Shown: in pieces, positions 8,798 through 62,500 of the stretch
Numbering within the stretch: position 1 is the first letter of the stretch
Layout of the letters: each line of letters starts with the position of its first letter
Source of the DNA: Cladocopium goreaui
Lineage: Eukaryota > Sar > Dinophyceae > Suessiales > Symbiodiniaceae
NCBI GenBank assembly: GCA_947184155.2
Contig: CAMXCT020000398.1
Location: 51,001-115,000 of the forward strand
DNA length: 64,000 nucleotides
Direction of reading: 5' to 3'
Notes under the pieces: model-generated
Told to the model about the DNA's origin: nothing
What the model saw: only the letters and a program-made list of their open reading frames with translations
Databases searched by the model: none
Translations under genes and position numbers: made by a program

Positions 8798-8905
8798 TAC
8801 CCTCTGGTAAACCAACATAACTATGGAAAATCACAATCTTTACTGGGAAAACTCACTATTTCTATGGCCATGTTCAATAGCTATGTAACAAATTACCAGA
8901 GGCTA
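8798..8905. mobile_element. MITE family A, copy
   Basis: TACCCTCTGGTAAACC ... AATTACCAGAGGCTA. The arms pair the two internal signatures ATAACTATGG and CAATAGCTATG. Flanked by TA, as all copies are. Confidence 0.8.
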
Positions 8906-10107: not shown

Positions 10108-10211
10108 TACCCTCTGGTAAACTAACATAACTATGGAAAATCACAATTTTCAATGGGAAAATCCGCCATAAATGGCCATTTTCAATAGCTATGTTAAATT
10201 ACCAGAGGGTA
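10108..10211. mobile_element. MITE family A, copy at an exon edge
   Basis: TACCCTCTGGTAAACTAACA ... TTAAATTACCAGAGGGTA. Its right end is 3 bp from the proposed donor end of the minus exon 10215-10334, so the element starts almost at the first base of that intron. Confidence 0.85.
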
Positions 10212-22510: not shown

Positions 22511-22615
22511 TACCCTCTGGTAATTTAACATAGCTATGGAAAATCACCATGTTCAATGGGTAAATCCACTATAAATGGCCATTTTCAATAGCTATTTTGA
22601 CATAACCAGAGGCTA
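22511..22615. mobile_element. MITE family A, overlapping the Argonaute stop codon
   Basis: TACCCTCTGGTAATTTAACA ... TTTGACATAACCAGAGGCTA. Its terminal CTA is the complement of the TAG that ends the proposed last Argonaute exon. Confidence 0.8.
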
Positions 22616-33308: not shown

Positions 33309-33375
33309 CTATAAGATCGACATCCCCCTTATAATATTAAGTTGAACCCGGGTGGCGCCATTTTATAAGAAATTC
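33309..33375. repeat. Left end of the giant element (inverted similarity to 62440-62500)
   Basis: GATCGACATCCCCCTTATAA, TATT, then CCCGGGTGGCGCCATTTTAT. Compared with the complement of the right end, ATCGA-YATCCCCCTTWTAATATT and the GGCGCC box are shared, with a few mismatches and a gap. Confidence 0.65.
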
Positions 33376-33968
33376 CTTATGAAATGCTAGTTCCACGGCA
33401 AAAATTCCTTATAGAATGCATATAATTCAGGAGTCGGAAAATAGGGAACTCCAATTAGCATTTTATAAGAAAAAACGCATTCTTATAATATGATAGACCA
33501 GAGTCCAAAAAAACGGCTTATAGATCGTGGCCCAGACAATTTACTTTTTTGGTGATTACCCGATATACATTTTATAAGGTGGGAGTGGAAATTTCACAAA
33601 TTATCAGAGAATATCAGAGATTTATACTGAAAGTGACAAACTGTCATTCTATAAGGCACCTCCAGGGCATTCTATAAGAACCAAAACTGTGCAAACCTGA
33701 TTTCTCCGGGATTCTCCGGGTATGTTTTTCTCAGTTTGTGCTGGTAAAACCTGTAATTATCAAAAGAAATTGTTTATATTGCAAAGATTTGCAAAGTAAG
33801 TGTACCTTATATAATGGATATTCAATAAAAACAAACATGAATCTTGCAAAGCTTTTGAAACATTATAAAATGGCAAACCACAGTTCAGGTCACTGCTACA
33901 ACAATAGGCATAATATAAGAAACCAAAACAACTTTCTACCTGCACCAGTTTGGGCCTTATGAAATGCC
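33359..33968. repeat. Left subterminal CATTTTATAAG cluster
   Basis: CATTTTATAAG at 33359, 33459 and 33568; one-base variants CATTCTATAAG at 33645 and 33668; complementary forms CCTTATGAAATG at 33376 and 33955 and CCTTATAGAATG near 33408. Irregular spacing and mixed orientation suggest protein-binding sites rather than a satellite. Confidence 0.75.
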
Positions 33969-33987
33969 AAATGCAAGTCATGCTGTC

Positions 33988-34120
33988 TTTTATAACCCTG
34001 GGCGGCCTGCCTGTTATAAAATCATAATAATTGTGTGGTAAAAATGCTAAATATAAATTATTGTAATTTTATAATTTCATAATACTACAATATACCACAT
34101 ATGACTACTTTATACATCTA
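33988..34120 (+). repeat. Direct repeat copy 1
   Basis: TTTTATAACCCTGGGCGGCC TGCCTGTTATAAAAT, then TGTGGTAA, CATAATACTAC and ACATCTAGATGCATC. Copy 2 lies at 34573-34740 in the same orientation. Similar TTTTAACCCTGGG is near the right end at 62405. Confidence 0.8.
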
Positions 34121-34572
34121 GATGCATCATTGTGCACACCTATATACTCTTATATTATATATTATATTGGAAACTGTTGCAATATGTTGCAATATATTGG
34201 AATATATTGGAATATAAACTACGACATAACGCGCGACCATGGGCAAACATTGCGTTATGTTCTCTTACCATCTCTTACCACTTTATGTTTTTGTATTGTT
34301 TTGTTATTATGTTCAATAATTTTGACGTGCTTTGCATTTTGAACACTTTTGAACAATTTAGAATAATTTAGATATGTTGTTAATTGTCATTATATGAATA
34401 TGCTATTATATGTGTATACAATTGTATAATATTGTATACAATTTTCCTCGCTTTTTAACCTATTTTATACAAATTTGCACCAAGATGTTTCAGATGTTTT
34501 TTGCATGAGTAGGTTTGGTATAGAAAGACAATGCATGATAATGTTTGACAATGTTTGACATCAGGCCTGTAC

Positions 34573-34740
34573 TTCTTTTATAACCCTGGGCGGCCTGCCT
34601 GTTATAAAATGATAATCGTACTTTGTGGTAAGGATGATATGACATTATTGTCATTTTATAGTTGCATAATACTACATATAACTACTATATACATCTATAT
34701 GCATCGTTGTGCATCTAGATACATGTATATTATACATGTT
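34573..34740 (+). repeat. Direct repeat copy 2
   Basis: Same order of blocks as 33988-34120, with some extra AT-rich sequence. Confidence 0.8.
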
Positions 34741-34826
34741 TAACACCTTTATACATCTAATATACATCTAATATATAAAAGGAAGTACGAGAACATAGAA
34801 TACAGAATTTTGAAAAATAGGTTTTG

Positions 34827-34912
34827 GGGCATCTTCCAGAATTGAAAAAAAAACGGTGTACATAGAATATCCCAGGAGTGTACATAGAATATGTTTAATT
34901 CTGGAAGATGTT
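34827..34912. repeat. Short inverted repeat
   Basis: GCATCTTCCAGAATTGAA and TTTAATTCTGGAAGATGTT flank two copies of GTGTACATAGAATAT. Confidence 0.75.
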
Positions 34913-34929
34913 TTTTTTTGTTTTTTTTT

Positions 34930-35260
34930 GAATTATCAAATTTTCACCCGTACTGCAGCATAAATGGACATAAATGGACAATGTTCAAATTGTCATCTCA
35001 CTAAAATCCTTTGGATTATCAAAATAGCACTCATACTGCAGCATAAATGGACATAAATGGACAGTTTTCAAATTTTCACCACGCCAAAATCCTTTGAATT
35101 ATCAAAATATCATCCGTGCTGCGGCCTAAATGGACATAAATGATCATTTTTTAATTTTCACCCCACTAAAATCTTTTGAATTATCAAAATATAACCCGTG
35201 CTGCAGCATAAATGGTCATAAATTGATATTTTTCAATTTTTTTCAGCCCACTAAAATCCA
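34930..35260 (+). repeat. 83-bp tandem repeat, 4 copies
   Basis: Starts at 34930, 35013, 35096 and 35178, each with GRATTATCAAAA, CTGCAGCATAAATGGACAT and CACTAAAATCC. Copies differ by several percent or more. Confidence 0.9.
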
Positions 35261-35368
35261 CCAGAACACAATAGAATCCCTCACAAAATTGTTCAAGCTC
35301 ACCGAAGGGTGCCCCCCACGACCGGTGTCGAAGGACTATTAAAAAGAAGCTATTTTGCAATGAAAAAA

Positions 35369-36373
35369 AATGAAAACCAATGGAATTAGGCGGTGTTCCT
35401 GAAAAAATGGATGAATATTTTCACTGGGGACCTATATTCTATGTATGTAGTTCTGCAAGGGATTGGATCTTTTCCATATATAAGGTTTATAATACTGGGT
35501 ACACTATAGCAAGGCTGCATTTGGCTACGTCATTGGCGCTGAGTGCCTTTCACAACTTTGAGGAGGCCCAGCAAGGCTACCTCCATAGCTATACATCTAA
35601 ATTGGGCAGTTGAGAATCATCATCTTTTGTGTTTAAAAACACTATTTTCCGTGAAAAAAAACATTTTGCTGTGAACACATTCTGATTTTCAGTGATGTTT
35701 AAGGACATGAGGTGTGAGTGTTTATCAAACTTACAGTTTTGAGGTGTGAGTTTACATCAAACCTACAGTAAATTTACTTATCAGGAGTGTAACTTTGATG
35801 TAAACTTACATGCACAAGTGTAAATTTGATGAACACTTACATGTTTGAGGTGTCAGCTTACACCAAACTTACATTTACAAGTATAAGCTTACACTTTTGC
35901 GTGTAAGTTTGATATAAATTTACAGTGTTGACATGTAAGTTTGATGTAAATTTATATCTATACTTATGATGTGTAAGTTTAGTGTTAGTGTAAATTTGAT
36001 GTAAACTTACACCTCAAACAGTGCAACTTTGATGCAAATTTACATCAAATTTACACCTCATGTCCTTAAGGGCTCCCCGTCCCTGCCGCCAACCCCAGAA
36101 CAAAAGAAATCACGAACATTGAATCATTGATGTACCGTATTTGCTGACCCAACCAACTTTCATGGGAACACTCCTAACAGTTTGTTATACAATTTTTTAT
36201 GCGAACACTCCCAACATTTCTGTTTAGAATTTTGTTTTTATGCATCCCCCCGTTGTCATACACACCCTAAAACATGTAAGAGACTCACTTCTTTGCAGAA
36301 CTACATACATAGAATAGAAGTCCCAAGGGAAAATTCATCCGAGGAACACCACCTAATTCCATTGGTTTTCATT
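35369..36373. mobile_element. Nested inverted-repeat element
   Basis: Outer arms of about 90 bp, 35369-35460 and 36291-36373, are imperfect complements (AATGAAAACCAATGGAATTA in the left arm). Between them lies an inner palindromic element at 35699-36070. The TACATACATAGAAT segment recurs directly at 36588-36629. Confidence 0.75.
35699..36070. mobile_element. Inner palindromic element
   Basis: Ends TTAAGGACATGAGGTGT / ACACCTCATGTCCTTAA are exact complements. The interior is filled with both orientations of a TGTAAGTTTGATGTAAATTT-like motif at 20-40 bp spacing. Confidence 0.85.
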
Positions 36374-36629
36374 CCCAAATAGAATTTATCATTTTTCTAC
36401 GGGACCAGTCGTGGGGGTACGTACCCTTAGGTGAGTTTGAAAAACCATTTTTTTCAATACAAAGTCAAAATAAATTGATCATTTCGGGGGACCAGTTTTT
36501 TTTCTTTATTTTCCAGTTCAGGAACTTCAGACATCCAGGGTTGCTACTCCCCAAAGGGAATGATGTATGTAATATATACCCTTATACATGTAAGAGACTC
36601 AATTCCTTGCAGAACTACATACATAGAAT
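36273..36629 (+). repeat. Direct repeat pair
   Basis: ACATGTAAGAGACTCA followed by TTGCAGAACTACATACATAG at 36273-36315 and again at 36588-36629. Confidence 0.85.
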
Positions 36630-36999
36630 TTAAGGGGCGATGATTTTTTTATGTGTTTTTTCAGTCTGGGGCAGTTTTCCTTGCTATTTGCTACATTTTG
36701 GGGCTAAAATCTCCGATTTGCGTGCTATTTGCTGCCTTTTGGAACCAAAATCTCTCTGATTTGCGTGCTATTTCCTGCGTTTTTGAACTAACATCTCTCA
36801 TTTTGCATGCTATTTGCAGCATTTCGGAACTGAAGTCGCAAACTTGGGTAAATAAATCGTAAATTTGCCCGATAATTGCAACATTTTAGTTTCACCCATT
36901 TTCCCATGGGTTTTCAACGATGTCTGGATGGTTTTCATCGCTTTCTTGATCCTCTTCAATGGTCTTTCCGTGGTTTCAAAAATTCTGTAGGGTTTCTTC

Positions 37000-37330
37000 T
37001 AGGGTTCTTGAGGGTTTAGGGTTTCATTATGAAAATTTTATTTAGGGTTTCTTTAGCGTTTGATTCAGGGTTTCTTTAGGGTTTCATTTAGGGTTTCTTT
37101 AGGGTGTCGTTTTTGGTTTCTCTGGAATGTCATTTAGGGTCTCTTTAAGGTTTCTTTAAAATTTAATTAATTTTTTTTGAGGGTTTCATCTAAGGTTTCT
37201 TTAGGTTTTAAAGTTTGATTAGGGTTTTTTTAGGTTTTAGGGTTTCTGTAGGGTTTTCTTAAGGTTTCTTTAGGGTTTCATTTCGGGTTCCTTTACAGTT
37301 TTCTTTCGGTGTTATTTTAAGGTTTCATTT
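37000..37330 (+). repeat. Degenerate TTTAGGG-like block
   Basis: AGGGTTTCTTTAGGGTTTCA and relatives, roughly every 12-14 bp, with TTTAGGG cores (the plant/dinoflagellate-type telomere heptamer) separated by variable TTTC. Too degenerate to be a live telomere. Confidence 0.6.
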
Positions 37331-37667
37331 ACACCGATGTCAAAGTAGATGGTTCAACTCAAAAACCAAAATACCCGTAAGATGGCACCGCGGGTTGAGA
37401 AAGAAAACGGCGCTATTTTAGCTGGGACATAAAACGAGGTCCGCCAATTCAAGAAACAAGGGGGGGCCTGAGAACCCAAAAGCAAAACGACAGCAAACAA
37501 ATTTGAGTAATACTGATAATTGGTTTATTTCTTTTTCGCCTCTTGCCAGCTTCTTTTTAGAAGATGAACATTATGGACGCATTCACAGAAAATTTCATTT
37601 TTCCCCACCTGCCAGGTGAGGGTTGTTAGATTTTATATGATTTTATCAGAGTTGTTCTCCTCGGCTA

Positions 37668-37758
37668 GCTGTCCTCCTCGTCCTCGTCCTCCTCCTCCTC
37701 CTCGTCCTCCGCCTTCTCCTCCTCCTCTGCCTCCTCCTCCAGTTTCTCCTCGATCATG
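37668..37758. repeat. CTC/GTC trinucleotide tract
   Basis: TCCTCGTCCTCCTCCTCC-type purine/pyrimidine asymmetry. It would code for an acidic run on the minus strand or a Pro/Arg run on the plus strand, but neither lies in a supported gene. Confidence 0.85.
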
Positions 37759-37824
37759 TCTGCATCAACTTCCACCTCAACTTCCGCCTTGCCAACTCTT
37801 CGCCGAGCTCTTTGCCAACTTCGC

Positions 37825-38029
37825 AGCTCAGTGTGCACCGCTGGACCTCAACCTGGGGCCAAACCAGCTCAGTGTGCACCGCTGGACCTCAACCTGGGAC
37901 CTTCCCAGCTCAGTGTGCACCGCTGGACCTCAACCTGGGGCCAAACCAGCTCAGTGTGCACCGCTGGGCCTCAACCTGGGACCTTCCCAGCTCAGTGTGC
38001 ACTGCTGGACCTCAACGGCCAAATAGAAT
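37825..38029 (+). repeat. 41-bp tandem repeat, 5 copies
   Basis: Starts at 37825, 37866, 37907, 37948 and 37989: AGCTCAGTGTGCACCGCTGG then ACCTCAACCTGGG, alternating GCCAAACC and ACCTTCCC. Confidence 0.92.
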
Positions 38030-38039
38030 ACCAGAAGAT

Positions 38040-38458
38040 ATGCCAGAAGATACACTCTACACTTTACACTTTGCACTTTCCACTCCCCCTTCACACTCTA
38101 CACTTTACACTCTACACTCCACAATTTACACTTTGGACTCCACACTTTAAACTTTGCACTCCGCATTTTACACTCTACACGCTCCACACTCTTCACCCCA
38201 CACTCCACCACACTCCCACTCTACACCCCACACTCCACCACACTCCACACTTTACACCCCACACTCCACAAACTACACTTTCCACTCCACACTCCACACT
38301 CCACACTTTACACTCAACACTCCTCACTCCACAATTTACACTTTACACTCCTCACTCCACACTCTACACTTTATATACACTTTGCACTTTGCACTCCTCA
38401 CTCCACACTTTACTCTCCACACTCCGCACTCTACACTTTACGCTGTACACTTTACACG
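38040..38458 (+). repeat. ACACTYYACACTTT low-complexity array
   Basis: Irregular repeats of ACACTCCAC and ACACTTTAC for about 400 bp, ending where the reversed large unit begins. Confidence 0.88.
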
Positions 38459-38459
38459 A

Positions 38460-39217
38460 GGTTTTGTATATCTTTTCCATTTTTGATGCTGTTCAATGCT
38501 TTTCTGCTAGTGGCTGCTCATTTTCATACATGTTCCGTCAGTTCTTGACCTGTGTGTGAATTTTTCTGTTGTCGCTCAGGCTTTTCTTGCATTGTTTTAT
38601 GAAGACAAGGGTGCGCACATTTGAGGCGCGGTGGCTTTCATCTCAGAGGGCTTGTTTCCTCGTGCGCTGCCATGCATGCAGCGTTTCAGCGCCTTCCTTC
38701 ACGCCTCTGCTTTAGTTTCCTAGCTCTTTAAAGTACACAACGAAAGGAAGCACAACGCGCAAGGCAAACAGAAACAAGCCAGCCTTTGGCGACCCATGGC
38801 GGAGTGACTCATAAGCATGCTCCGTGCAAAGGCCCTTCAACAAAATTCTTTGGAAATGACGGTATGTAGATGACCATGACCATCCATCGCCATCCCACAA
38901 CTGCCACAGGGCGAGACTGACGGCGCGCAAAGCGCCCTTATAAAATGACAATTCACACGCTGCAAGATGCCTTTACATCTTGGGACAGGCATTTCATAAG
39001 GCATTCTCCTCGCCAACGCGTCCCCGACGGACCCCCAGCAAAAATTGAAAGAGCACATTGGATAATGTCAGCTTTCTTTGGCTGTGATGCTGTGGTTGTT
39101 GAAGAGAGGTTTCTGCACCCGGCCCTCGCCTTTTGTTTGGCTTCCTCCAATGAGCGCCATTGCTCAATGACCATATCCATCCAGCGCCGTTGCTCAATGA
39201 CGATCTCCATCCCAAAA
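38460..39217 (-). repeat. Large unit, single reversed copy (left arm)
   Basis: Complement of the B half of the 1.4-kb unit, from the centre-proximal start GGATGGAGATCGTCATTGAG (complement at about 39200) outward. The forward array starts at the same base of the unit (40331), so the two arms are symmetrical about the centre. Confidence 0.88.
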
Positions 39218-39268
39218 AATGACATATTTTTTGCAATCTTCTGCGCTGGTTTCTCCCCATTTTTTTGG

Positions 39269-39882
39269 CCTCAACATCAAGCTGCTTTTTTGGGACATAG
39301 ATGGCGCAACTCCCGGGGTTGCGCCATCTATGTGGGCATTCCCAGCCTGATTTTGGCGAAGTGACGGAAGTTGTTTTGAGCCAACAAAGGTCGAGACGCT
39401 TTAAAACCCAATTTTAACAAGTGACCTGAGGAACCGGTTTTGCCGTCAAGAAACGGTTCCTCAGGTCACTTGTTAAAATTGGGTTTTAAAGCGTCTAGAC
39501 CTTTGCTGGCAAAATGACGGAAGTTGCGCCATCTATGTCCCAAAAAGGACAACTCTGATGTCTTTCCTGGTGGTTTTGCCTCCTGTCCTGGGACAACTCT
39601 GATGTCTTTCCTGGTGGTTTTGCCTTTTGTGGCATATTTTGGTTAGGTTGGTTGATGGATGTCGGGAGATATGAGGGAGGTGCGCCATCTATGTGGGCAT
39701 TTGCAGCCTGATTTTGGCGAATGAGTGGGAGTTGCGCCATCTATGTCCCAAAAAGGCAGCTTGATGTTGAGAAAAAAAGTATGGAGGCAAAACCACCAGG
39801 AAAGACATCAGAGTTATCCCAAGACGGGATGTTTTGCCTCCTGTCTTGGGACAACTCTGATGTCTTGGGATAGCTCTGATGG
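39269..39882. repeat. Central inverted-repeat complex
   Basis: CTCAACATCAAGCTGC...GACATAGATGGCGCAACTC (39269-39313) is complementary to 39731-39775. GACAACTCTGATGTCTTTCC+TGGTGGTTTTGCC occurs twice forward (39548, 39590) and once reversed (about 39788). TGCGCCATCTATGTGGGCAT occurs at about 39316 and 39679. Confidence 0.8.
39395..39495. repeat. Perfect 42-bp-arm hairpin at the element centre
   Basis: Left arm 39395-39436 (starts GACGCTTTAAAACCC) and right arm 39454-39495 are exact complements around a 17-nt loop (39437-39453). Beyond them the pairing continues about 14 bp with two mismatches (AACAAAGGTCGA / TAGACCTTTGCT). Confidence 0.95.
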
Positions 39883-39932
39883 GTTCATAAACCGCCCCGG
39901 TCAAAACGATGCTCGCTTTCGTTTTCGACAAA

Positions 39933-39946
39933 CGCGCGCGCGCGCG
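39933..39946. other. (CG)7 tract
   Basis: CGCGCGCGCGCGCG, an unusual run in AT-rich surroundings and capable of left-handed Z-DNA. It is followed by a purine-rich GGGGAGACAAAGGGGAGAC stretch. Confidence 0.9.
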
Positions 39947-39949
39947 TTG

Positions 39950-40330
39950 GCGCAAAACGCTCACCCCGACTCGTTGCATTGGGATCACCGCCCCGGGGAG
40001 ACGCAATGGGGCGACACAACGGGGAGACAAAGGGGAGACAAAGGGAACAAAAAGAAAGAGCAAAATGAAAAGATGTCTTTTTTATAGTTTGTAAACGAGA
40101 AAAGCTGCTTTGTAACGTATTGAAATGTTAAAATTGTGCATATGTGCTGAATAATTTGATATCTTTTTAAAATTATTTCTATCCAAAATTCTGTCCACAA
40201 CCAATGTTAGAACATTCAGTGGATCATTTTCAAGGCATTGCAATGATTTTTTACTGCATTTTAAAAAAAATATGTTTGTCAAAATATGTTGAAAAATGAG
40301 ATTTCTGTCCATAAATTCTGCCCGCAAGAA
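39950..40330. other. Spacer between centre and forward array
   Basis: AT-rich, no repeat or exon recognised apart from the purine-rich start. Ends at the first unit. Confidence 0.6.
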
Positions 40331-41128
40331 CCGCTGGATGGAGATCGTCATTGAGCAATGGCGCTCATTGGAGGAAGCCAAACAAAAGGCGAGGGCCGGG
40401 TGCAGAAACCTCTCTTCAACAACCACAGCATCACAGCCAAAGAAAGCTGACATTGTCCAATGTGCTCTTTCAATTTTTGCTGGGGGTCCCGTCGGGGACG
40501 CGTTGGCGAGGAGAATGCCTTATGAAATGCTTGTCCCAAGATGTAGAGGTATCTTGCAGCGTGTGAACTGTCATTTTATAAGGGCGCTTTGCGCGCCGTC
40601 AGTCTCGCCCTGTGGCAGTTGTGGGATGGTGATGGATGGTGATGGATGGTCATGGTCATCTACATACCGTCATTTCCAAAGAATTTTGTTGAAGGGCCTT
40701 TGCACGGAGCATGCTTATGAGTCACTCCGCCATGGGTCGCCAAAGGCTGGCTTGTTTCTGTTTGCCTTGCGCGTTGTGCTTCCTTTCGTTGTGTACTTTA
40801 AAGAGCTAGGAAACTAAAGCAGAGGCGTGAAGGAAGGCGCTGAAACGCTGCATGCATGGCAGCGCATGAGGAAACAAGCCCTCTGAGATGAAAGCAACCG
40901 CGCCTCAAATGTGCGCACTCTTGTCTTCATAAAACAATGCAAGAAAAGCCTGAGCGACAACAGAAAAATTCACACACAGGCCAAGAACTGACGGAACATG
41001 TATGAAAATGAGCAGCCACTAGCAGAAAAGCATTGAACAGCATCAAAAATGGAAAAGAAATACAAGCCAAAATCAAGAAAATGACAAAACCTCTTGCGAA
41101 CAAGCACAGCATTAAAAGTCAAAAGACA
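40331..41128 (+). repeat. Array unit 0 (B half only)
   Basis: Starts ACCGCTGGATGGAGATCGTC and runs to the A-half landmark. Nearly identical to the reversed copy at 38460-39217. Confidence 0.88.
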
Positions 41129-42493
41129 GATGTTATCTGATTTATTTTCTTCCTTGTTTCCTTGTGGAGCTCATTCTGCACGCAATGGCCAAGGGCAAAC
41201 CTCTGAGTTGCGAGTCCCAGGGTGTGCTGCGTGTAGCGGCATGTGAGCCTTCATTTATGGCTGTGCTTCGTGCACCTTCAGTCTCGGCCTGTGGCAGATG
41301 TTGGATGCTGATGGATGGTGTCTGATGATGGTGCCCTACATGGTGTTGTCTGATATTCTTGCTGAACGCCGTATGGCAAGGAGAACGCAAGTCCGCTGCA
41401 AAGGATGCTTTACTTTCACTGGGGCTTCTCTGGCTGACTCTGGCTTGCTCCAAGTTGGTTTGTTTCTGTGGTGGCTGTGCATGTTATCTTTCCTTTCGTT
41501 TTGTATTTGGGAAAGAACGGGGAAACTCAAGCGAGAAGGTGGCAAAGGCGCGGAGAAAGACAGCATGCATACGAGCAGACAAAGAAAAAAATGCCACAGA
41601 AGATGACAGCAACCTGCCACACACGCCCGCAAGCTAGCCTTCACAAGTACAAGGCAGCAGGCATCAATGAGCGACAGCAGGAACATACAGAACCAGGTGC
41701 AAAAATACTGATGAATATTGTAGCAAGAACCGCTGGATGGAGATCGTCATTGAGCAATGGCGCTCATTGGAGGAAGCCAAACAAAAGGCGAGGGCCGGGT
41801 GCAGAAACCTCTCTTCAACAACCACAGCATCACAGCCAAAGAAAGCTGACATTATCCAATGTGCTGTTTCAATTTTTGCTGGGGGTCCGTCGGGGACGCG
41901 TTGGCGAGGAGAATGCCTTATGAAATGCTTGTCCCAAGATGTAAAGGCATCTTGCAGCGTGTGAACTGTCATTTTATAAGGGCGCTTTGCGCGCCGTCAG
42001 TCTCGCCCTGTGGCAGTTGTGGGATGGTGATGGATGGTCATGGTCATCTACATACCCTCATTTCCAAAGAATTTTGTTGAAGGGCCTTTGCACGGAGCAT
42101 GCTTATGAGTCACTCCGCCATGGGTCGCCAAAGGCTGGCTTGTTTCTGTTTGCCTTGCGCGTTGTGCTTCCTTTCGTTGTGTACTTTAAAGAGCTAGGAA
42201 ACTAAAGCAGAGGCGTGAAGGAAGGCGCTGAAACGCTGCATGCATGGCAGCGCATGAGGAAACAAGCCCTCTGAGATGAAAGCAACCGCGCCTCAAATGT
42301 GCGCACTCTTGTCTTCATAAAACAATGCAAGAAAAGCCTGAGCGACAACAGAAAAATTCACACACAGGTCAAGAACTGACGGAACATGTATGAAAATGAG
42401 CAGCCACTAGCAGAAAAGCATTGAACAGCATCAAAAATGGAATCATATACAAAACCTCTTGCGAACAAGCACAGCATTAAAAGTCAGAAGACA
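41129..42493 (+). repeat. Array unit 1
   Basis: Complete, 1365 bp, young subtype (GTCATTGAGCAATGG). Confidence 0.9.
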
Positions 42494-43858
42494 GATGTTA
42501 TCTGATTTATTTTCTTCCTTGTTTCCTTGTGGAGCTCATTCTGCATGCAATGGCCAAGGGCAAACCTCTGAGTTGCGAGTCCCAGGGTGTGCTGCGTGTA
42601 GCGGCATGTGAGCCTTCATTTATGGCTGTGCTTCGTGCACCTTCAGTCTCGGCCTGTGGCAGATGTTGGATGCTGATGGATGGTGTCTGATGATGGTGCT
42701 CTACATGGTGTTGTCTGATATTCTTGCTGAACGCCGTATGGCAAGGAGAACGCAAGTCCGCTGCAAAGGATGCTTTACTTTCACTGGGGCTTCTCTGGCT
42801 GACTCTGGCGCGCGCCAAGTTGGTTTGTTTCTGTGGTGGCTGTGCATGTTATCTTTCCTTTCGTTTTGTATTTGGGAAAGAACGGGGAAACTCAAGCGAG
42901 AAGGTGGCGAAGGCGCGGAGAAAGACAGCATGCATACGAGCAGACAAAGGAAAAAAATGCCACAGAAGATGACAGCAACCTGCCACACACGCCCGCAAGC
43001 TAGCCTTCACAAGTACAAGGCAGCAGGCATCAATGAGCGACAGCAGGAACATACAGAACCAGGTGCAAAAATACTGATGAATATTGTAGCAAGAACCGCT
43101 GGATGGAGGTCGTCATTGAGCAATGGCGCTCATTGGAGGAAGCCAAACAAAAGGCGAGGGCCGGGTGCAGAAACCTCTCTTCAACAACCACAGCATCACA
43201 GCCAAAGAAAGCTGACATTATCCAATGTGCTGTTTCAATTTTTGCTGGGGTTCTGTCGGGGACGCGTTGGCGAGGAGAATGCCTTATGAAATGCTTGTCC
43301 CAAGATGTAAAGGCATCTTGCAGCGTGTGAACTGTCATTTTATAAGGGCGCTTTGCGCGCCGTCAGTCTCGCCCTGTGGCAGTTGTGGGATGGTGATGGA
43401 TGGTCATGGTCATCTACATACCGTCATTTCCAAAGAATTTTGTTGAAGGGCCTTTGCACGGAGCATGCTTATGAGTCACTCCGCCATGGGTCGCCAAAGG
43501 CTGGCTTGTTTCTGTTTGCCTTGCGCGTTGTGCTTCCTTTCGTTGTGTACTTTAAAGAGCTAGGAAACTAAAGCAGAGGCGTGAAGGAAGGCGCTGAAAC
43601 GCTGCATGCATGGCAGCGCATGAGGAAACAAGCCTCAAATGTGCGCACTCTTGTCTTCATAAAACAATGCAAGAAAAGCCTGAGCGACAACAGAAAAATT
43701 CACACACAGGTCAAGAACTGACGGAACATGTATGAAAATGAGCAGCCACTAACCGAAAAGCATTGAACAGCATCAAAAATGGAAAAGACATACAGGCCAA
43801 AATCAAGAAAATGACAAAGCCTCTTGCGAACAAGCACAGCATTAAAAGTCAAAAGACA
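42494..43858 (+). repeat. Array unit 2
   Basis: Complete, 1365 bp, nearly identical to unit 1. Lacks the CCCTCTGAGATGAAAGCAAC stretch near its end. Confidence 0.9.
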
Positions 43859-52514: not shown

Positions 52515-53953
52515 CAGTTATCTGATTTCTTTTCTTCCTTGTTTCCTTGTGGAGCTCATTCTGCATGCAATGTCCAAGGCAGCCCTCTGAGATGCGAGTC
52601 CCAGGGTGTGCTGCGTTTAGCGGCGTGCGGATCTTCATTTTATGGCAGTGTTCTGTGCGCCTTCAGTCTCGGCCTGTGGCAGATGTTGGATGCTGATGGA
52701 TGGTGTCTGTTGATGGTGCTCTACATGGTGTTGTCCGATACTCTTGCTGACAGGTCTATGGCACGGAGACAGCAAGTCCGCTGGAAAGGATGCTTTACTT
52801 TTACATACTTTTACTGGGACTTCTCTGGCTTGCTACAAGTTGGTTTGTTTCTGCTGGCTGTGCATGTTATCTTTCCTTTCGCTTTTTGTCTTGGGGAGGG
52901 AGGGGGAATCTCAAGCAAGAAGGTGCCGAAGGTGCGGAAAGACTTCATCCATACAGGCAGACAAACAAAGAAAGCCACTGAAGATGAAAGCAACCTGCAA
53001 ACACATGCTTGCAAGCAGATGAAAACAACCTGCCACACATGCTTGCAAGCTAGTCTTCACAAACACAAGACAGCAGGCAACAATGAGCGACAACAGGAAA
53101 ACGAAGACTCAGGTCAAAAATAGCCGATGAATATTGTAGCAAGAACCGCTGGATGGAGATCGACATTGAGCAACGGCACGCATCAGAGGAAGCCAACCAA
53201 AACAAACCAGATGCAGAGACCTTTCTTCAACAAACACAGCATCAAAGCCAAAAAAAAGCTGATATTATCCTATGTCTTCTTTCAAATTCTGCTGGGGCCC
53301 GTCGGGGACGCATTGGCCAGGGCAATGCCTTATGACATGCTTGTCCCAAGATGCGAAGGTATTTGCAGCGTGTGAATTGCCATTTTATAAGGGCGCTTTG
53401 TGCGCCTTCAGTCTTGTCCTGTGGCAGCTGCAGGATGGTGATGGATGGTGGTCATCTACATTCTGTCATTTCCTCATTTCCAGAGATCTTTGTTGAAGGG
53501 CCTTTGGCACGGACCATGCTTGTGAGTCACTCCGCCATGGGTCGCTACAAGCTGGTTTGGTTTTGTTTGCCGTGCACATTGTGCTTCCTTTCGTTGTGTA
53601 CTTGCAAAGAGGTAGGAGACTAAAAGCAGAGGCATGAAGAAGGCGCGGAAACGCTGCATGCATGGCAGCGCATGAGGAAGGAAGTCCTCCTGGGATGAAA
53701 GCAACCGCGCCACGAATGTGCGCAATCTTGTCGTTAAAGAAAAGAACGCAAGGAAAGGTTGGGCAACAACAGAAAAAATCACACATAGGTCAAGAACTGA
53801 CGGAAAATGAAAATGAGAAGCCACCAACAGAAATTGCATTGACAGCATCAGAAAGTGGAAAAACAAGCCAAAACATGCCAAAACCAACAGAATGCCAAAA
53901 ACTCCTGTGAAACAGCACAGCATGAACCGCACAGCATTACAAGTCAAAGGACA
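52515..53953 (+). repeat. Array unit 9 (older subtype)
   Basis: Old-subtype markers: TTTTACATACTTTTACTGGG, GAGATCGACATTGAGCAACG, GGGCCTTTGGCACGG. Confidence 0.88.
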
Positions 53954-55242
53954 GATGCTAGATTTATATATATATATATTTATATATATATACATATATA
54001 TATATAGATATAGCTATTCTTCCCTGTGACCTTGTGGAGCTCATTCAGCACGCAGTGGCCAAGGGCAGCCCTCTGAAATGCGAGTCCCAGGTGTGCTGCG
54101 CAGTAGCGGCGTGCGGATCTTCATTTTATGGCAGTGTTTTGCGCGCCTTCGGTCTCGGCATGATGCTGATGGATGGTTTTGAGTATGAGTATGGTGCTCT
54201 ACATGGTGTTGTCTGATACTCTTGCTGACAGGTGTATGGCACGGAGACAGCAAGTCCGCTGGAAAGGATGCTTTCCTTTTACATACTTTTACTGGGACTT
54301 CTCTGGCTTGCTACAAGTTGGCTTGTTTCTGGTGGCTGTGCATGTTATCTTTCCTTTCGTTTTTTGTCTTTGGGAGGGAGCGGGAATCTCAAGCAAGAAG
54401 GTGCCGAAGGTGCGGAAAGACTTCATCCATACAGGCAGACAAACAAAGAATGCCACTGAAGATGAAAGCAACCTGCAAACACATGCTTGCAAGCTAGTGA
54501 TCACAAACACAAAACAGCAGGCAACAATGAGCGACAACAGGAAAACGAAGAAGCAGGTCAAAAAATACCGACGAATATCGTAGCAAGAACCGGTGGATGG
54601 AGATCGACATTGAGCAACGGCGCGCATCAGAGGAAGCCAACCAAAACAAACCAGATGCAGAGACCTTTCTTCAACAAACACAGCATCAAAGCCAAAGAAA
54701 GCTGATATTATCCTATGTCTTCTTTCAAATTCTGCTGGGGCCCGTCGGGGACGCATTGGCCAGGGCAATGCCTTATGACATGCTTGTCCCAAGATGCGAA
54801 GGTATTTGCAGCGTGTGAATTGCCATTTTATAAGGGCGCTTTGTGCGCCTTCAGTCTTGTCCTGTGGCAGCTGCAGGATGGTGATGGATGGTGGTCATCT
54901 ACATACTGTCATTTCCTCATTTCCAGAGATCTTTGTTGAAGGGCCTTTGGCACGGACCATGCTTGTGAGTCACTCCGCCATGGGTCGCTACAAGCTGGTT
55001 TGTTTTTGTTTGCCGTGCACATTGTGCTTCCTTTCGTTGTGTACTTGCAAAGAGGTAGGAGACTAAAGGCAGAGGCATGAAGAAGGCGCGGAAACGCTGC
55101 ATGCATGTCAGCGCATGAGGAAAGAAGTCCTCCTGGGATGAAAGCAACCGCGCCACGAATGTGCGCAATCTTGTCGTTAAAAAAAGAACGCAAGGAAAGG
55201 TTGGGCAACAACAGAAAAAATCACACATAGGTCAAGAACTGA

Positions 55243-56425
55243 GAGACGTGATCCGGAGAGAGGTCTGCAGAGTTGGTTTCGACCAGCGAAACCCGAAACC
55301 CGAAACCGACTGTTAAAGTTCCCTGAGGATCCAATGTTGGGTCTATTTGCTGACATTTGCGGTAAACCTTGTTTTTTGACGTCCGTAGGCATTATTTGAC
55401 ATCCGTAGCCAAAATTTGGCAACATTTGCGGTAACCGTAATTTTACCGTAAAATGCTGTGAGCACAAGCGAAAAGTGGCAGCTACCCTTAGAAGATGAGC
55501 GGTCAATCCTGAACAGATCACGGTTTATCACGGTTTATCACGTTTTGTCACGGTGTTTCCGACAAATGTCATAATTTTAAGTGGCAAAAAAGATAATTCA
55601 TCACGATTTGTCACGATTTTGAACTGCATATGACCATGATCAACTCGCATGCGCATCTTACAAATAGAGGATGCCTGCGGTTTTTCTCGATTTCCGACAA
55701 AATCCGATGGATTTCCGACAGGTTCCGGCAAATGTAACCAAAATCAAGCGTTAACGGAGACGTAGCTGTATTTTGACTACATTTCTATTTTTGGTGTATT
55801 TAACGACATGGATCCACAGGGGTTGGTTTCGCACTGCGAAACCCGAAACCCGAAACCCGAAACCCGAAACCCGAAACCCGAAACCGACTCTGAAGACTTA
55901 ACTTCCCCAGGGCCGATCGAAACCCGAAACCCGAAACCCGAAACCGACTCTGAAGACTTAACTTCCCCAGGGCCGATCGAAACCCGAAGCCCGAAACCCG
56001 AAACCGACTCTGAAGACTTACCTTCCCCAGGACCGATCGAAACCCGAAACCCGAAACCCGAAACCCGAAACCGACTCTGAAGACTTACCTTCCCCAGGAC
56101 CGATCGAAACCCGAAACCCGAAACCCGAAACCCAGCCGACTCTGAAGACTTAACTTCCCCAGGGCCGATTGAAACCCGAAACCCGAAACCTGAAACCGAC
56201 AGCGAAAGTGGGTTTCAATCGACGAAACCCGAAACCCGAAACCCGAAACCCGAAACCGACAGCGAAAGTTGGTTTCAATCGACGAAACCCGAAACCCGAA
56301 ACCCGAAACCCGAAACCCGAAACCGACTCGAATCCGACTTTTGGGTGGCTCTCCGGATCGGAACTCAGAACTGACGGAAACCGACTCGAATCCGACTTTT
56401 GGGTGGCTCTCCGGATCGGAACTCG
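55243..56425. mobile_element. 1.18-kb insertion carrying GAAACCC heptamer arrays
   Basis: Interrupts GTCAAGAACTGA|CGGAAAATG of the unit; GAACTGA is duplicated at 55236-55242 and 56426-56432. Both ends contain GATCCGGAGAG in inverted orientation (55249..., 56411...). The interior holds CGAAACC/CCCGAAA heptamer runs alternating with a 32-bp spacer (GACTCTGAAGACTTAACTTC then CCCAGGGCCGAT) at roughly 60-bp period. Confidence 0.78.
55835..56340 (+). repeat. CCCGAAA heptamer runs with spacer repeat
   Basis: Clusters of 3-6 heptamers ACCCGAA separated by CCGACTCTGAAGACTTAMCT-type spacers, later by CCGACAGCGAAAGTTGGTTT spacers. Resembles a telomere heptamer with one base changed (CCCTAAA to CCCGAAA). 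Confidence 0.92.
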
Positions 56426-56574
56426 GAACTGACGGAAAATGAAAATGAGAAGCAACCAACAGAAATTGCATTGACAGCATCAGAAAGTTAAAGTGGAAAA
56501 ACAAGCCAAAACATGCCAAAACCAACAGAATGCCAGCACAGCATGAACCGCACAGCATTACAAGTCAAAGGAAA

Positions 56575-57732
56575 GATGTTATATATAGATATATACAGAT
56601 ATAGATATAGATATACGTATAGATATAGATATAGATGATTGTTTTCTTCCCTGTGACCTTGTGGAGCTCCTTCAGCACGCAGTGGCCAAGGGCAGCCCTC
56701 TGAAATACGTGTCCCAGGGTGTACTGCATGTAGCGGCGTGCGGATCTTCATTTTATGGTAGTGTTTTGTGCGCCTTCGGTCTCGGCATGCTGGATGCTGA
56801 TGGATGGTTTTGAGTATGGTGCTCTACATGGTGTTGTCCGATACTCTTGCTGACAGGTCTATGGCACGGAGACAGCAAGTCCGCTGGAAAGGATGCTTTA
56901 CTTTTACATACTTTTACTGGGACTTCTCTGGCTTGCTACAAGTTGGTTTGTTTCTGCTGGCTGTGCATGTTATCTTTCCTTTCGCTTTTTGTCTTGGGGA
57001 GGGAGCGGGAATCTCAAGCAAGAAGGTGCCGAAGGTGCGGAAAGACTTCATCCATACAGGCAGACAAACAAAGAATGCCACTGAAGATGAAAGCAACCTG
57101 CAAACACATGCTTGCAAGCTAGTATCCACAAACACAAAACAGCAGGCAACAATGAGCGACAACAGGAAAACGAAGAATCAGATCAAAAATTACCGACGAA
57201 TATCGTAGCAAGAACCGCTGGATGGAGATCGACATTGAGCAACGATGCTCATTAGAGGAAGCCAACCAAAACAAACCAGATGCAGAGACCCTTCTTCAAC
57301 AAACACAGCATCAAAGCCAAAGAAATCTGATATTATCCTATCTCTTCTTTCAAATTCTGCTGGGGGCCCGTCGGGGACGCATTGGCCAGGGCAATGCCTT
57401 ATGAAATGCTCGTCCCAAGATGCGAGGGTATTTGCAGCGCGTGAATTGCCATTTTATAAGGGCGCTTTGTGCGCCTTCAGTCTTGTCCTGTGGCAGCTGC
57501 AGGATGGTGATGGATGGTCATCTACATACTGTCATTTCCTCATTTCCAGAGATCTTTGTTGAAGGGCCTTTGGCACAGAGCATGCTTGTGAGTCACTCCG
57601 CCATGGGTCGCTACAAGCTGGTTTGTTTTTGCTTGCCGTGCACATTGTGCTTCCTTTCCTTGTGTACTTGCAAAGAGGTAGGAGACTAAAAGCAGAGGCA
57701 TGAAGAAGGCGCGGAAACGCTGCATTCATGAT
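56575..57732 (+). repeat. Array unit 11 (3' part missing)
   Basis: Begins with a GATATAGATATAG microsatellite at 56577-56635, then unit sequence up to GCTGCATTCATGATGTTTTC, where it jumps to the middle of the next A half. About 1 kb was lost across the 11/12 boundary. Confidence 0.85.
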
Positions 57733-58837
57733 GTTTTCCTCTTACATACTTTTACTGGGACTTCTCTGGCTTGCTACAAGTTGGTTTGTTTCTGGTGGCT
57801 GTGCATGTTATCTTTCCTTTCGTTTTTTGTCTTGGGGAGGGAGCGGGAATCTCAAGCAAGAAGGTGCCGAAGGTGCGGAAAGACTTCATCCATACAGGCA
57901 GACAAACAAAGAATGCCACTGAAGATGAAAGCAACCTGCAAACACATGCTTGCAACCTAGTATTCACAAACACAAGACAGCAGGCAACAATGAGCGACAA
58001 CAGGAAAACGAAGAAGCAGGTCAAAACATAACCGATGAATATTGTAACAAGAACCGCTGGATGGAGATCGACATTGTGCGCGCATTAGAGGAAGCCAACC
58101 AAAACAAACCAGATGCAGATACCTTTCTTCAACAAACACAGCATCAAAGCCAAAGAAATCTGATATTATCCTATCTCTTCTTTCAAATTCTGCTGGGGGC
58201 CCGTCGGGGACGCATTGGCCAGGGCAATGCCTTATGAAATGCTCGTCCCAAGATGCGAGGGTATTTGCAGCGCGTGAATTGCCATTTTATAAGGGCGCTT
58301 TGTGCGCCTTCAGTCTTTTCCTGTGGCAGCTGTAGGATGGTGATGGATAGTGGTCATTTACATACTGTCATTTCCTCATTTCCAGAGATCTTTGTTGTTG
58401 AAGGGCCTTTGGCACGGAGCATGCTTGTGAGTCACCCCGCCATGGGTCGCAACAAGCCTGTTTGCCTTGCACGTTGTGCTTCCTTTCGTTGTGTACTTTA
58501 AAGAGCTAGGAAACTAAAGCAGAGGGGTGAAGAAGGCTCTGAAACGCTGCATGCATGGCAGCGCATGAGGAAACAAGCCCTCCTGGGATGGAAGCAACCG
58601 CGCCACAAATGTGCGCAATCTTATCATCACAAAAAAGAACGCAAGGAAAGGCTGGGCAACAACAGAAAAATCACACACGCAGGTCAAGAACTAAGGGAAC
58701 ATGAAAATGAGAAGCAACTAACAGAAATTGCATTGACAGCATTAAAAAATGGAAAAACAAGCCAAAATCAACAGAATGCCAACACCTCTTGTGAACCAGC
58801 ACAGCATTACCAGCACAGCGTTAAAAGTCGAAAGACC
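57733..58837 (+). repeat. Array unit 12 (5' part missing)
   Basis: Picks up at TCTTACATACTTTTACTGGG and is complete from there on. Also lacks the AGCAACGG part of the GACATTGAGC segment. Confidence 0.85.
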
Positions 58838-60751
58838 GATGTTACATGAATTTTTTTCTTCCCTGTTTTCTTGTGGAGCTCATTCTGCACGCAATGGCCA
58901 AGGGCAGACCTCTGAGTTGCGAGTCCCAGGGTGTGCTGCGTGTAGCGGCATGTGAGTCTTCATTTATGGCTGTGTTTTGTGCGCCTTCGGTCTCGGCCTG
59001 TGGCAGATGTTGGATGCTGATGGATGGTGTCTGTTGATGGTGCTCTACATGGTGTTGTCTGATATTCTTGCTGACAGGTGTATGGCACGGAGACAGCAAG
59101 TCCGCTGGAAAGGATGCTTTACTTTTACATACTTTTACTGGGACTTCTCTGGCTTGCTACACGTTGGTTTTTTTCAGGTGGCTGTGCATGTTATCTTTCC
59201 TTTCGTTGTTTGTAGTTGGGAAAGAGCGGGGCATCTCAAGCAATAAGGTGCCGAAGGTGCGGAAAGACTTCATCCATACAGGCAGACAAACAAAGAATGC
59301 CACTGAAGATGAAAGCAACCTGCAAACACATGCTTGCAAGCAGATGAAAGCAACCTGCCACACATGCTTGCAAGCTAGTCTTCACAAACACAAGGCAGCA
59401 GGCGACAATGAGCGACAAGAGGAAAACGAAGAATCAGGTCAAAAAATAACCGATGAATATTGTAGCAAGAACCGCTGGATGGAGATCGACATTGAGCAAC
59501 GACGCTCATTACCCAATAGATGAGATACCCTTATTTTCTAACTATTCTACTTGTTTTCACAAAATAGGCTATATACAGAAAATAGTCTACAAAAAAAATA
59601 ACTATTTGGTTAAATCTATGATTGAGAAATCGGTCTATTTTTACAAAATCGGCAGATTTTTCCCGGGACAGGGGGGTCGTAGTTTGGTAGAAAGTCGGTC
59701 GGACTTTCGCCCCTTGTTTGCAGGCGTGGGTCGGAGTTTGGTGAAGGTTTGAAGATTGATTTTTGCAACCCCTTCAGCATTTCCACGCATTGGCGTCGTA
59801 CTTTGGTCAGACTTTGGTCGGAGTTTGGCCCCAAATAGAAATTATCTATTTCCTAGGAAATAGACTATTTCCTAGGAAATAGGCTCAAAAAAATCTAACT
59901 ATTAGTTAAATGTGTTTTTCAAAAATCTATCTATTTTTCAACCCCCCCAAATCTACCAATTCTATCTAAATAGACTACTTCTTGTGAAATAGGTTATAGT
60001 CAGAAAATAAACTATTTCAATCTATTGGGTAGAGGAAGCCAACCAAAACAAACCAGATGCAGAGACCCTTCTTCAACAAACTCAGCATCAAAGCCAAAGA
60101 AATCTGATATTATCCTATGTCTTCTTTCAAATTCTGCTGGGGGTCCGTCGGGGACGCCTTATGAAATGCTCGTCCCAAGATGCGAAGGTATTTGCAGCAT
60201 GTGAATTGCTCTCATTTTATAAAAACGCTTTGTGCGCCTTCAGTTTTGTCCTGTGGCAGCTGTAGGATGGTGATGGATAGTGGTCATTTACATACTGTCA
60301 TTTCCTCATTTCCAGAGATCTTTGTTGAAGGGCCTTTGGCACGGAGCATGCTTGTGAGTCACCCCGCCATGGGTCGCAACAAGCCTGTTTGCCTTGCACA
60401 TTGTGCTTCCTTTCGTTGTGTGCTTTAAAGACCTAGGAAACTAGAGCAGAGGCGTTAAGAAGGCGCTGAAACGCTGCATGCATGGCGCGCATGAGGAAAC
60501 AAGCCCTCCTGGGATGGAAGCAACCGTGCCACAAATGTGCGCAATCTTGTCTTCACAAGAAGAACGCAAGGATAGTCTGGGCAACAACAGAAAAAATCAC
60601 ACAAAAAGGTCAAGAACTGACGGAAAATGAAAATGAGCAGCGACAAACATACATTGCAATGGGCAGCATGAAAAAATAAAAAGCAAGCCAAAATCAACAG
60701 AATGCCAAAACTCTCTTATGAACCAGCACAGCATTATAAAAGTCAAAGACA
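58838..60751 (+). repeat. Array unit 13 (split by a MITE)
   Basis: Old subtype, interrupted at GCTCATTA|GAGGAAGCC by 59512-60029. The B half lacks GCATTGGCCAGGGCAATG. Confidence 0.85.
59512..60029. mobile_element. 518-bp TA-flanked MITE inside unit 13
   Basis: Ends CCCAATAGATGAGATACC / AATCTATTGGG, with imperfect inverted similarity extending about 80 bp (TTATTTTCTRACTAT...CTATTTTNACAA). TA at 59510-59511 is repeated at 60030-60031. Sister unit 11 has the empty site GCTCATTAGAGGAAGCC (57245-57262). Contains palindromes CTATTTCCTAGGAAATAG. TA duplication suggests Tc1/mariner-type mobilisation. Confidence 0.88.
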
Positions 60752-61786
60752 CGTGTTGTCTGATTTCTTTTCTTCCTTGTTTCCTTGTGAAGCTCATTCT
60801 GCACGCAATGGCCACGGGCAGCCCTCTGAAATGCGAGTCCCAGGGTGTGCTGCGGCATGCGAATCTTCATTTTTTAGCTGTGTTTTTTGTGCGCCTTCGG
60901 GCTCGGCCTGTGGCAGATGTTGGATGCTGATGGACTGTTGTGATTGTGGTGCTCTACCTGTTGTTGTCTGATATTCTTGATGACAGGTGTGTGGCCCGGA
61001 GAACGCAAGTCCGCGGGAAAGGATGCTTCACTTTTACATACTTTTACTGGGACTTCTCTGGCTTGCTACAAGTTGGTTTGTTTCTGGCGGCTTTGCATGT
61101 TATCTTTCCTTTCGTTTTTTGTATTTGGGAAAGAGCGGGGAATCTCAAGCAAGAAGGTGACGAAGGTGCGGAAAGACTTCATCCATACAGGCAGACAAAG
61201 AAAGAATGCCACTGAAGATGAAAGCAACCGGCCACACATGCTGCAAGCTAGTCTTCACAAACACAGAACAGCAGGGAAAACAAAGAATCAGGTCAAAAAA
61301 TACTGATGAATATTGCAGCAAGAACCGCTGGTGATCGTCATTGCATGAGAGGAAGCCAAACAAAATAAGCCCGATACCGAATACAGAAACCTTTCTTCAA
61401 CAAACGCAGCTTCAAAGCCAAGGAAAGCTGATATTATCCTATGTGCTCATTCAATTTTTTGCTGGGGGTCCGTCGGGGACGCATCGGCCAGGGCAATGCC
61501 TTATGAAATGCTCGTCCCAAGATGTGAATGTGTCTTGCAGCGTGTGAATTGCCATTTTATAAGGGCGCTTTGTGCGCCTTCAGTCTCACCCTGTGGCAGC
61601 TGCAGGATGGTGATGGATGGTGGTCATCAAAGTTTTTTTGAAGGGCCTTTGGCACGGCGCATGCTTGTGAGTCACCCCGCCATGGGTCGCCACAAGCTGG
61701 TTTGTTTCTGTCTTCCGTGCACATTGTGCTTTCTTTCGTTTTGCACTTTAAAGAGCTGCGAAACTAAAGCAGAGGCGTGAAGAAAG
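60752..61786 (+). repeat. Array unit 14 (last, truncated)
   Basis: Starts GTGTTGTCTGATTTC and ends after AAAGCAGAGGCGTGAAGAAA, in the middle of the B half. Confidence 0.85.
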
Positions 61787-61854
61787 TAAGGTGCCGTGGT
61801 TCCGCCTGGTCTCTCCACACGGCGGTGCTTGCCAACCCGAAAGCACGCTTAATT

Positions 61855-61990
61855 AAATAAATTCAAAAAGCTCCAAACCTATCCTGAATAAGCTCTAAAC
61901 CAGCCCTGAGCAGATCATGAACAAACCCTGAACCAAAACCCCGCATAAACCCCAAGCAGACCCTAAATAAACACTAACTAACCCTAACCC
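61855..61990 (-). repeat. Degenerate CCCTAAA-like block
   Basis: CTCTAAACCAGCCCTGAG, AACAAACCCTGAACC, GACCCTAAATAAACACTAAC, TAACCCTAACCC. Complementary in orientation to the TTTAGGG-like block at 37000-37330. Confidence 0.55.
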
Positions 61991-62066
61991 GCTCCCCCCC
62001 CGCTTTGTGTCATGCTGGAATCCACAAGAACAGATTTGATGGCCGCAAACTCAAACTTTATAGTTT

Positions 62067-62470
62067 CTTATAAAATGACGGTCCGCCGCTCCATTACAAG
62101 CATTCCGAACCATCATTTTATAAGGCAATGTTCTCCAAATGTTATTAAATGACAACTAGAGTCTATACACGACAAGTTTAAAAGGAACCATGATTTTATA
62201 ACCCCAACATGTAGTAAAAAAATATACAAATATATTTTTTTATGCTGACCCCGCCCCCCATGTTTTCTCCTGAGGAGATACCGGGGTTTGCCATTTTATA
62301 GCCCCCAGAAAAAGGGGCGGTTTATAAAATGACAGTTCCCAGTAGGGATCTTCCCAGACCCGTTATTGCAAAACACACCATTTTATAAGCAATTTCACGT
62401 TTGATTTTAACCCTGGGGGCGGCACTCAATAAGAATGAGGGGCGCCACCCGGGTGGCGCCATTTAATAAG
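62067..62470. repeat. Right subterminal CTTATAAAATG cluster
   Basis: CTTATAAAATG at 62067, CATTTTATAAG at 62114 and 62379, CATTTTATAG at 62292, TTTATAAAATG at 62321 and CATTTAATAAG at 62460. Mixed orientation as in the left cluster. Confidence 0.75.
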
Positions 62471-62500
62471 GAATATTAAAAGGGGGATAGATCGACTATA
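62441..62500. repeat. Right end of the giant element, with a 20-bp perfect palindrome
   Basis: GGCGCCACCCGGGTGGCGCC (62441-62460) is its own complement. Outside it AATATTAAAAGGGGGATAGA mirrors the left end's ATCCCCCTTATAATATT. Confidence 0.68.

Follow-up and report, generated by a model that had tools for sequence, protein, structure and literature searches.

A probable non-autonomous transposon family with a giant, satellite-carrying member in the dinoflagellate Cladocopium goreaui

Transposable elements that are bounded by terminal inverted repeats (TIRs) and lack genes are usually short. Among the described systems closest to the element analysed here, Tetris/DAIBAM of Drosophila virilis and D. 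americana is apparently non-autonomous and contains internal tandem repeats that expand (PMC4079207), Galileo of the P superfamily holds extra binding sites for its THAP-domain transposase in tandem repeats (PMC3688188), and similarity in the Merlin family Sy.m_F1 is limited to 2.57 kb (PMC8101967). The present element spans 29,167 bp and is located in a 64,000-bp stretch of the genome of Cladocopium goreaui (the window; contig C398, positions 51001-115000, in an assembly of 1.17 Gb and 6,202 contigs; positions below are those of the window unless a contig is named). An earlier note, based on the letters of the window alone, had described this block as a lopsided palindrome and a candidate giant element of the foldback type. 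According to our analyses, the block is very probably one copy of a family of non-autonomous TIR DNA transposons, in a giant form that carries a satellite array.

The ends of the element could be set to the base, at positions 33322 and 62488. They carry an imperfect 17-bp TIR (pattern ATCCCCCTTWTAATATT) whose tips begin with 5'-ATCCCCC; the termini can be written as ATCCCCCTT...AAGGGGGAT and are accompanied by 8-bp target-site duplications (TSDs). Because the duplication flanks the block and the terminal repeats stand at both of its ends, the 29,167 bp were interpreted as one insertion. The boundaries drawn in the earlier note (33309 and 62500) were nearly correct, being off by 13 and 12 bases, respectively. 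Its statement that every landmark on the left recurs on the right in the opposite orientation did not hold, as the two arms match in inverted orientation only in the 17-bp tip (16 of 17 positions) and in a short ACCCGGGTGGCGCC-like stretch. Inside the tip, the best local match between the two 700-bp end regions comprised 16 bases with a score of 32, the maximum in 300 letter shuffles being 29. With TIRs at both ends, a TSD of fixed length and no transposase found in its interior, the element has the features expected of a non-autonomous TIR transposon. The right flank at about 62643-62796 (the end of the query) recurs at 38 further sites among those listed (96-100% identity), and for this reason a recently amplified, abundant repeat is considered to start just outside the element.

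Genome-wide searches identified a family of copies with the same ends. The tip pattern ATCCCCCTTWTAATATT had 19 matches in the 1.17 Gb and the pattern ATCCCCCTTWYAATATT had 31, with no match of the reversed control in either case; one of the 31 exact tips, on contig C6144, is probably a chance match because no similarity extends beyond the tip. An exact 8-bp TSD was present at all nine loci that were read at both ends, which comprise seven giant copies and two short types (Table 1). The 689-bp copy was counted as one locus since it was found twice with identical flanks, indicating a local duplication, and the TSDs of C2523 and C232 say little on the exact length of the duplication because they consist of A and T only. 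Searches with the left and right ends gave at least 43 and 48 matches, respectively, from the best 40 candidates scored in each case. Among the matches listed, arrays or long copies of the array type occur at 13 loci when second versions are counted once (the C2523 locus has a second version on C1261, and C4843 and C4224, with 14-16 identical flank bases, resemble second versions of C125 and C1001), and nine older short copies of 681 to 1,169 bp were matched by both outer ends, with 71-82% identity at the left end and 80-90% at the right end; some of these nine may be second versions of one locus. The 1,006-bp copy joins base 596 of the left end to base 280 of the right end, with 4 bases in common, as expected of an internal deletion, and both short members with TSDs (689 and 1,006 bp) have the appearance of internally deleted elements in which left and right ends are fused. 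Between copies the interiors and the array lengths vary and the ends are constant. The earlier suggestion of a giant mobile element is thus corroborated by exact ends, the 8-bp target duplication and the existence of other loci that share both ends, the absence of which had been named as a reason to abandon it.

The interior is dominated by a one-sided array of a dimeric unit of about 1.4 kb, which consists of an A part (~0.73 kb) and a B part (~0.62 kb) that are weakly alike (85.7% identity over 56 bases, 73.5% over 117). The array of the window copy contains 15 matches of the A type, some of them partial, and one inverted A unit lies outside it; an approximately fourteen-fold amplification, as proposed before, was therefore a good estimate. 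Every long copy compared combines the left arm and the right end with dimers arrayed on one side, and in the window copy, C2523, C4238, C1261 and C3613 the terminal, partial A unit stops at nearly the same base. In a set of 58 A units from seven copies, 34 belong to a young class near the left and 24 to an old class near the right end. When the inverted A unit was used as query, 41 matches on 10 contigs were obtained (best 40 of 120 candidates scored), and an old unit yielded 64 matches on 11 contigs (best 40 of 117). Together these searches touched 15 contigs, every one of which also bears an element end (15 of 15 among the matches listed). The nearest relative of an A unit resides in a different copy for 42 of the 58 units and in the same copy for the other 16, and the former count fits an array that is older than the dispersal of the copies. 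Five of the 10 young units of the window have their nearest relative within the window, and units 1 to 4 of the array, together with the inverted one, find their closest relatives inside their own group (98.5-99.6% identity), which is the trace of a recent local amplification at the left edge of this array. A derivation of the satellite from an element end was considered but not adopted: no similarity to the ends was detected for the B unit, and that of the A unit was too weak for such a claim (score 35, compared with maxima of 28 and 34 in two sets of 100 shuffles).

Carriage of the array as part of the element is also suggested by a nested insertion of 415 bp with its own TSD (Table 1). The same insertion, at the same site and with the same duplication, is present in the copy on C5808, where it is 98-99% identical and shorter inside, and the bases flanking the C398 and C5808 elements differ. 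Since this insertion is common to two copies at one site, a long, array-bearing element probably existed before the copies spread. These findings suggest that non-coding DNA can travel as a single unit even in very large pieces.

A CATTTTATAAG-like motif recurs in the subterminal regions and in the array. With up to one mismatch it was found 47 times in the window, each time inside the element (shuffle mean 2.55); of these occurrences, 30 belong to repeat units, 12 to the left zone and 5 to the right end. Those in the units are mostly paired, about 53 bases apart, and a CATTTCATAAG/CATTTTATAAG pair occurs in most A units; in conservation across the 58 A units, the two motif windows take places 28 and 38 among 723. 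Motif-rich zones on both sides had been claimed before and do exist, but their motifs stand in mixed orientation. By analogy with Galileo, the CATTTTATAAG motifs are probably bound by a transposase.

The strongest competing idea, that of a foldback element in which two long inverted arms move and the right arm is merely richer in repeats, draws on the inverted A unit, the hairpin between the arms and the subterminal motifs on both sides, yet it must be regarded as very improbable. The large unit does recur in inverted orientation relative to the right-hand array, as the earlier note had stated, and the hairpin exists as well, although with arms of 95% identity it is not the perfect one that had been reported. 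However, long and internally repetitive inverted arms were not found; end to end, the inverted similarity is limited to the 17-bp tip and short pieces, and short, array-free copies with the same tips likewise have TSDs. Of the 58 units from seven copies, a single one is inverted, that of the window copy; the six other long copies have no inverted A unit and no match to the surrounding filler (C3613 in part), so that the palindromic look belongs to the window copy and not to the family, and the foldback designation, given the short TIRs, is unsupported. In place of the filler, C2523 contains diverged units and simple repeats amounting to some 2.9 kb, a stretch that aligns in the other copies. 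The telomere-like blocks, which had been regarded as counterparts, are unlike each other: the left one (36991-37331), part of the shared arm, is composed of degenerate TTTAGGG/TTTC repeats, and the right one is a CGAAACC array within a nested insertion confined to the window copy. An internal flip within the family was observed elsewhere, as a 318-bp segment of C2523 (39820-40137) is inverted relative to window positions 36277-36594, C4238 and C3613.

Even less credible is the idea that segmental duplication or ectopic exchange spread a satellite array on which the end repeats hitch-hiked. Array lengths do vary, some units have their closest counterparts in the window copy, and the local duplication of the 689-bp copy illustrates such a process, but different 8-bp TSDs at the seven giant loci, fixed ends and array-free short members with TSDs contradict it, as does the finding that, among the matches listed, no array unit lies on a contig without an element end. 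An assembly artefact in the form of a misjoined repeat contig would be consistent with C5808 and C1261, and probably also C612 and C6169, beginning inside the element, which indicates that arrays break the assembly; it would hardly give the window copy and six other giants a matching pair of TSDs each, nor place the C2523 insertion on two contigs whose right flanks agree at 99.7% over 13.97 kb, and it is accordingly rated lower again. The least plausible of the alternatives is a decayed integrated virus-like or Polinton-like element: its size (14-40 kb) and terminal repeats would fit, and such elements are reported to expand in protist genomes (PMC12220804), but none of the open reading frames (ORFs) examined in the window copy (n = 55) and in C2523 (n = 5) has a Pfam domain, and the interior consists mostly of satellite repeats in the seven copies compared. 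Some observations nevertheless weigh against a transposon that carried its array from locus to locus. In a search for empty sites, 38 of the 40 listed places were taken by the common right-flank repeat, and no empty site was among them. Among the matches listed in the genome searches for tips and for MULE, hAT and KDZ domains, there was neither a transposase nor an autonomous partner with these ends. The motif pair is conserved above average but is not the best conserved part of the A unit. Ectopic exchange could also have spread the shared nested insertion, and the arrays may have grown after insertion, so that the jumping element may have differed in size from the present copies. The 16 of 58 units related most closely to a unit of their own copy are not distinct from shuffled labels (mean 10.3, maximum 23; 79 of 1000 shuffles reach 16), for which reason no strong homogenisation within copies is assumed overall, and the nearest-relative counts neither prove nor exclude exchange between copies.

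The proposed lack of coding capacity was confirmed for the element within the limits of the method: of all 55 stop-to-stop ORFs of at least 110 amino acids, none had a Pfam match at an E-value cut-off of 0.01, although multi-exon genes made of short exons could escape this search. Likewise, no Pfam domain was detected in five ORFs from the middle of C2523 or in 10 ORFs flanking the element. An 8-bp TSD agrees with the TSD lengths of hAT, KDZ/Zisupton and Merlin (8-9 bp in the last), as hAT elements usually have TSDs of 8 bp and Zisupton produces duplications of this length (PMC12730594). Eleven matches to the hAT dimerisation domain were obtained in the genome, and among their contigs solely C3846 also contains an element end, that of a short copy located about 90 kb away. 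The MULE domain PF10551 had no match in the genome (this Mutator model alone was used). For KDZ, 16 genome matches were recorded, none on contigs with an exact tip or with listed element ends; the relaxed tip pattern had 221 matches, compared with 80 for its control, and no one-mismatch tip occurred on the 6 of 16 KDZ contigs covered by the listed matches. KDZ-type frames of 299 amino acids with identical scores were found on eight contigs (C205, C394, C681, C1391, C3395, C5824, C5862 and C6062) and perhaps represent a recently active family. The tip here begins with 5'-AT and not, as in Merlin, with 5'-GG. As no transposase is linked to the element, none of the names hAT, MULE, KDZ and Merlin was adopted. 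A locus on C23, where partial matches to the end regions (without tips) lie about 8 kb apart, was examined as a candidate autonomous copy and is probably not one element, since the 1.2 kb read there contain a protein-kinase domain and have no match to the seven copies. Between the stretches resembling both end regions, positions 181525-181956 of C23 encode a partial kinase domain (Pkinase, E 3.2e-28), which may be a captured gene or belong to an unrelated neighbour.

Table 1. Features of the window, and copies of the element family with their TSDs. Positions refer to the window; copies are named by contig.
Feature	Location	Strand	Remarks
Left TSD AGATCGAC	33314..33321		8 bp
Left TIR ATCCCCCTTATAATATT	33322..33338	+	
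Left arm	33322..37331	+	common to other long copies, ~89-97% identity in larger aligned pieces
Left subterminal zone	33359..34611	mixed	12 CATTTTATAAG-like motifs
Extra diverged stretch in left arm	33945-34588		no full-length match in other copies
Window-only filler	37332..38457		CTC/CAC repeats of low complexity; unmatched in the six other long copies (C3613 in part)
Inverted A unit, single	38458..39212	-	best match 98.2% over 729 bp, to second A unit of array
Window-only filler	39213..40323		nested inverted repeats; no match in six other long copies (C3613 in part)
Hairpin	39380-39510		60-nt arms, 95% identical, 11-nt loop
Young array part	40324..51291	+	eight ~1.4-kb A+B dimers; last B cut by nested insertion
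Nested 415-bp insertion	51292..51706		own 8-bp duplication TGTGCATG
Old array part	51707..61796	+	units ~85-88% identical to young unit; terminal A unit partial
Nested window-only insertion with CGAAACC block	55243..56432		7-bp direct repeat GAACTGA at borders
Nested window-only 518-bp insertion	59512..60029		inverted ends CCCAATAGAT, TA duplication; mariner-type by look
Right end region	61797..62488		query 61790-62488 matched full length at 90-97% on at least 11 other contigs
Right-end subterminal motifs	62067-62470	mixed	5 motifs
Right TIR ATCCCCCTTTTAATATT	62472..62488	-	16/17 identical to left
Right TSD AGATCGAC	62489..62496		8 bp, exact match to left
Giant copy, 29,167 bp	C398 (window copy)		TSD AGATCGAC
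Giant copy, 12,158 bp	C2523		TSD TATATATA
Giant copy, 10,963 bp	C4238		TSD GTTTAAGT
Giant copy, 15,783 bp	C396		TSD CCCGCATC
Giant copy, 15,637 bp	C125		TSD TTCTGGCA
Giant copy, 21,689 bp	C6115		TSD CATGTAAA
Giant copy, 16,264 bp	C232		TSD ATATTATA
Short copy, 689 bp	C291		TSD CAACTTGC
Short copy, 1,006 bp	C5542		TSD AGTTGGTT
Older short copies	C1304, C1285, C3846, C4147, C126, C464, C1423, C582, C2584		
~105-bp dispersed repeat	8797-8905, 10107-10211, 11914-12017, 14460-14568, 15265-15373, 22510-22615, 28002-28107, 28482-28590		

Besides the element, the left half of the window contains a dispersed repeat about 105 bp long, whose copies lie in either orientation and are ~86-93% identical (Table 1). 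Scans of the window with Rfam (at gathering scores) and for tRNA genes gave no matches. The dinoflagellate spliced-leader sequence has 172 exact copies in the assembly (reversed control 0), which identifies the host as a dinoflagellate, and none in the window with up to three mismatches; genome size and certain peptide repeats would suit Symbiodiniaceae.

Starting from what could be read directly, namely the ends, the duplications, the family, the shared array and the shared nested insertion, a mechanism can be proposed for the transposon family. A transposase supplied in trans would recognise the 17-bp tip, probably together with the repeated subterminal CATTTTATAAG motifs, and would insert the element with an 8-bp target duplication, presumably by cut-and-paste movement. 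In the presumed ancestor the array was probably already long at the time of dispersal and would have been carried along with the copies, after which it may have grown or shrunk in each of them, most likely via unequal exchange or template switching during gap repair. One such event, perhaps during gap repair, probably added the inverted unit and the filler in the window copy. A bolder and rather doubtful extension is that the array is not passive cargo but amplifies the putative transposase-binding motif, thereby letting a transposase move elements of ~30 kb from tips of 17 bp. If this were true, the transposon would grow a satellite because the satellite helps the transposon move, and the transposase might belong to a class not yet described in dinoflagellates. 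With identical tips, members of the family range from 689 bp to 29 kb, and the giant form seems to keep the array through dispersal, which would offer a satellite array a route to travel through the genome as a unit. It also provides a clean test case for the question whether tandem binding sites help a transposase to move very large DNA and, for the annotation of the large and repeat-rich genomes of dinoflagellates, a concrete repeat family with exact tips.

A literature search covering titles and the openings of abstracts, mostly of open-access papers, retrieved no description of the present family, and the available part of a review of giant transposons (PMC6431247) names no comparable gene-less TIR element. 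For maize Ds, the abstract (PMC3260210) does not name a long array, and in contrast to Ds no Ac-like partner was found here. Symbiodinium Merlin elements (PMC8101967) also reside in a dinoflagellate and likewise combine internal tandem repeats with imperfect TIRs and 8-bp TSDs, but the new Merlin families begin with 5'-GG and code for a transposase. Galileo resembles it in tandem repeats that reiterate a short motif, and differs by long TIRs and a known transposase (PMC3688188), whereas binding to the motif described here is putative. Like Tetris (PMC4079207), the family has TSDs of comparable length (8-9 bp in complete Tetris copies), short relatives with the same ends (in Tetris a miniature inverted-repeat transposable element) and modular, rearranged copies. 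The TIRs of Tetris are, however, long (up to 1,735 bp) and hold repeats of ~220 bp, whereas the present family combines a 17-bp TIR with a one-sided array of 1.4-kb dimers and reaches 29 kb. Taken together, these comparisons place the element as a giant, array-carrying variant of a known transposon type.

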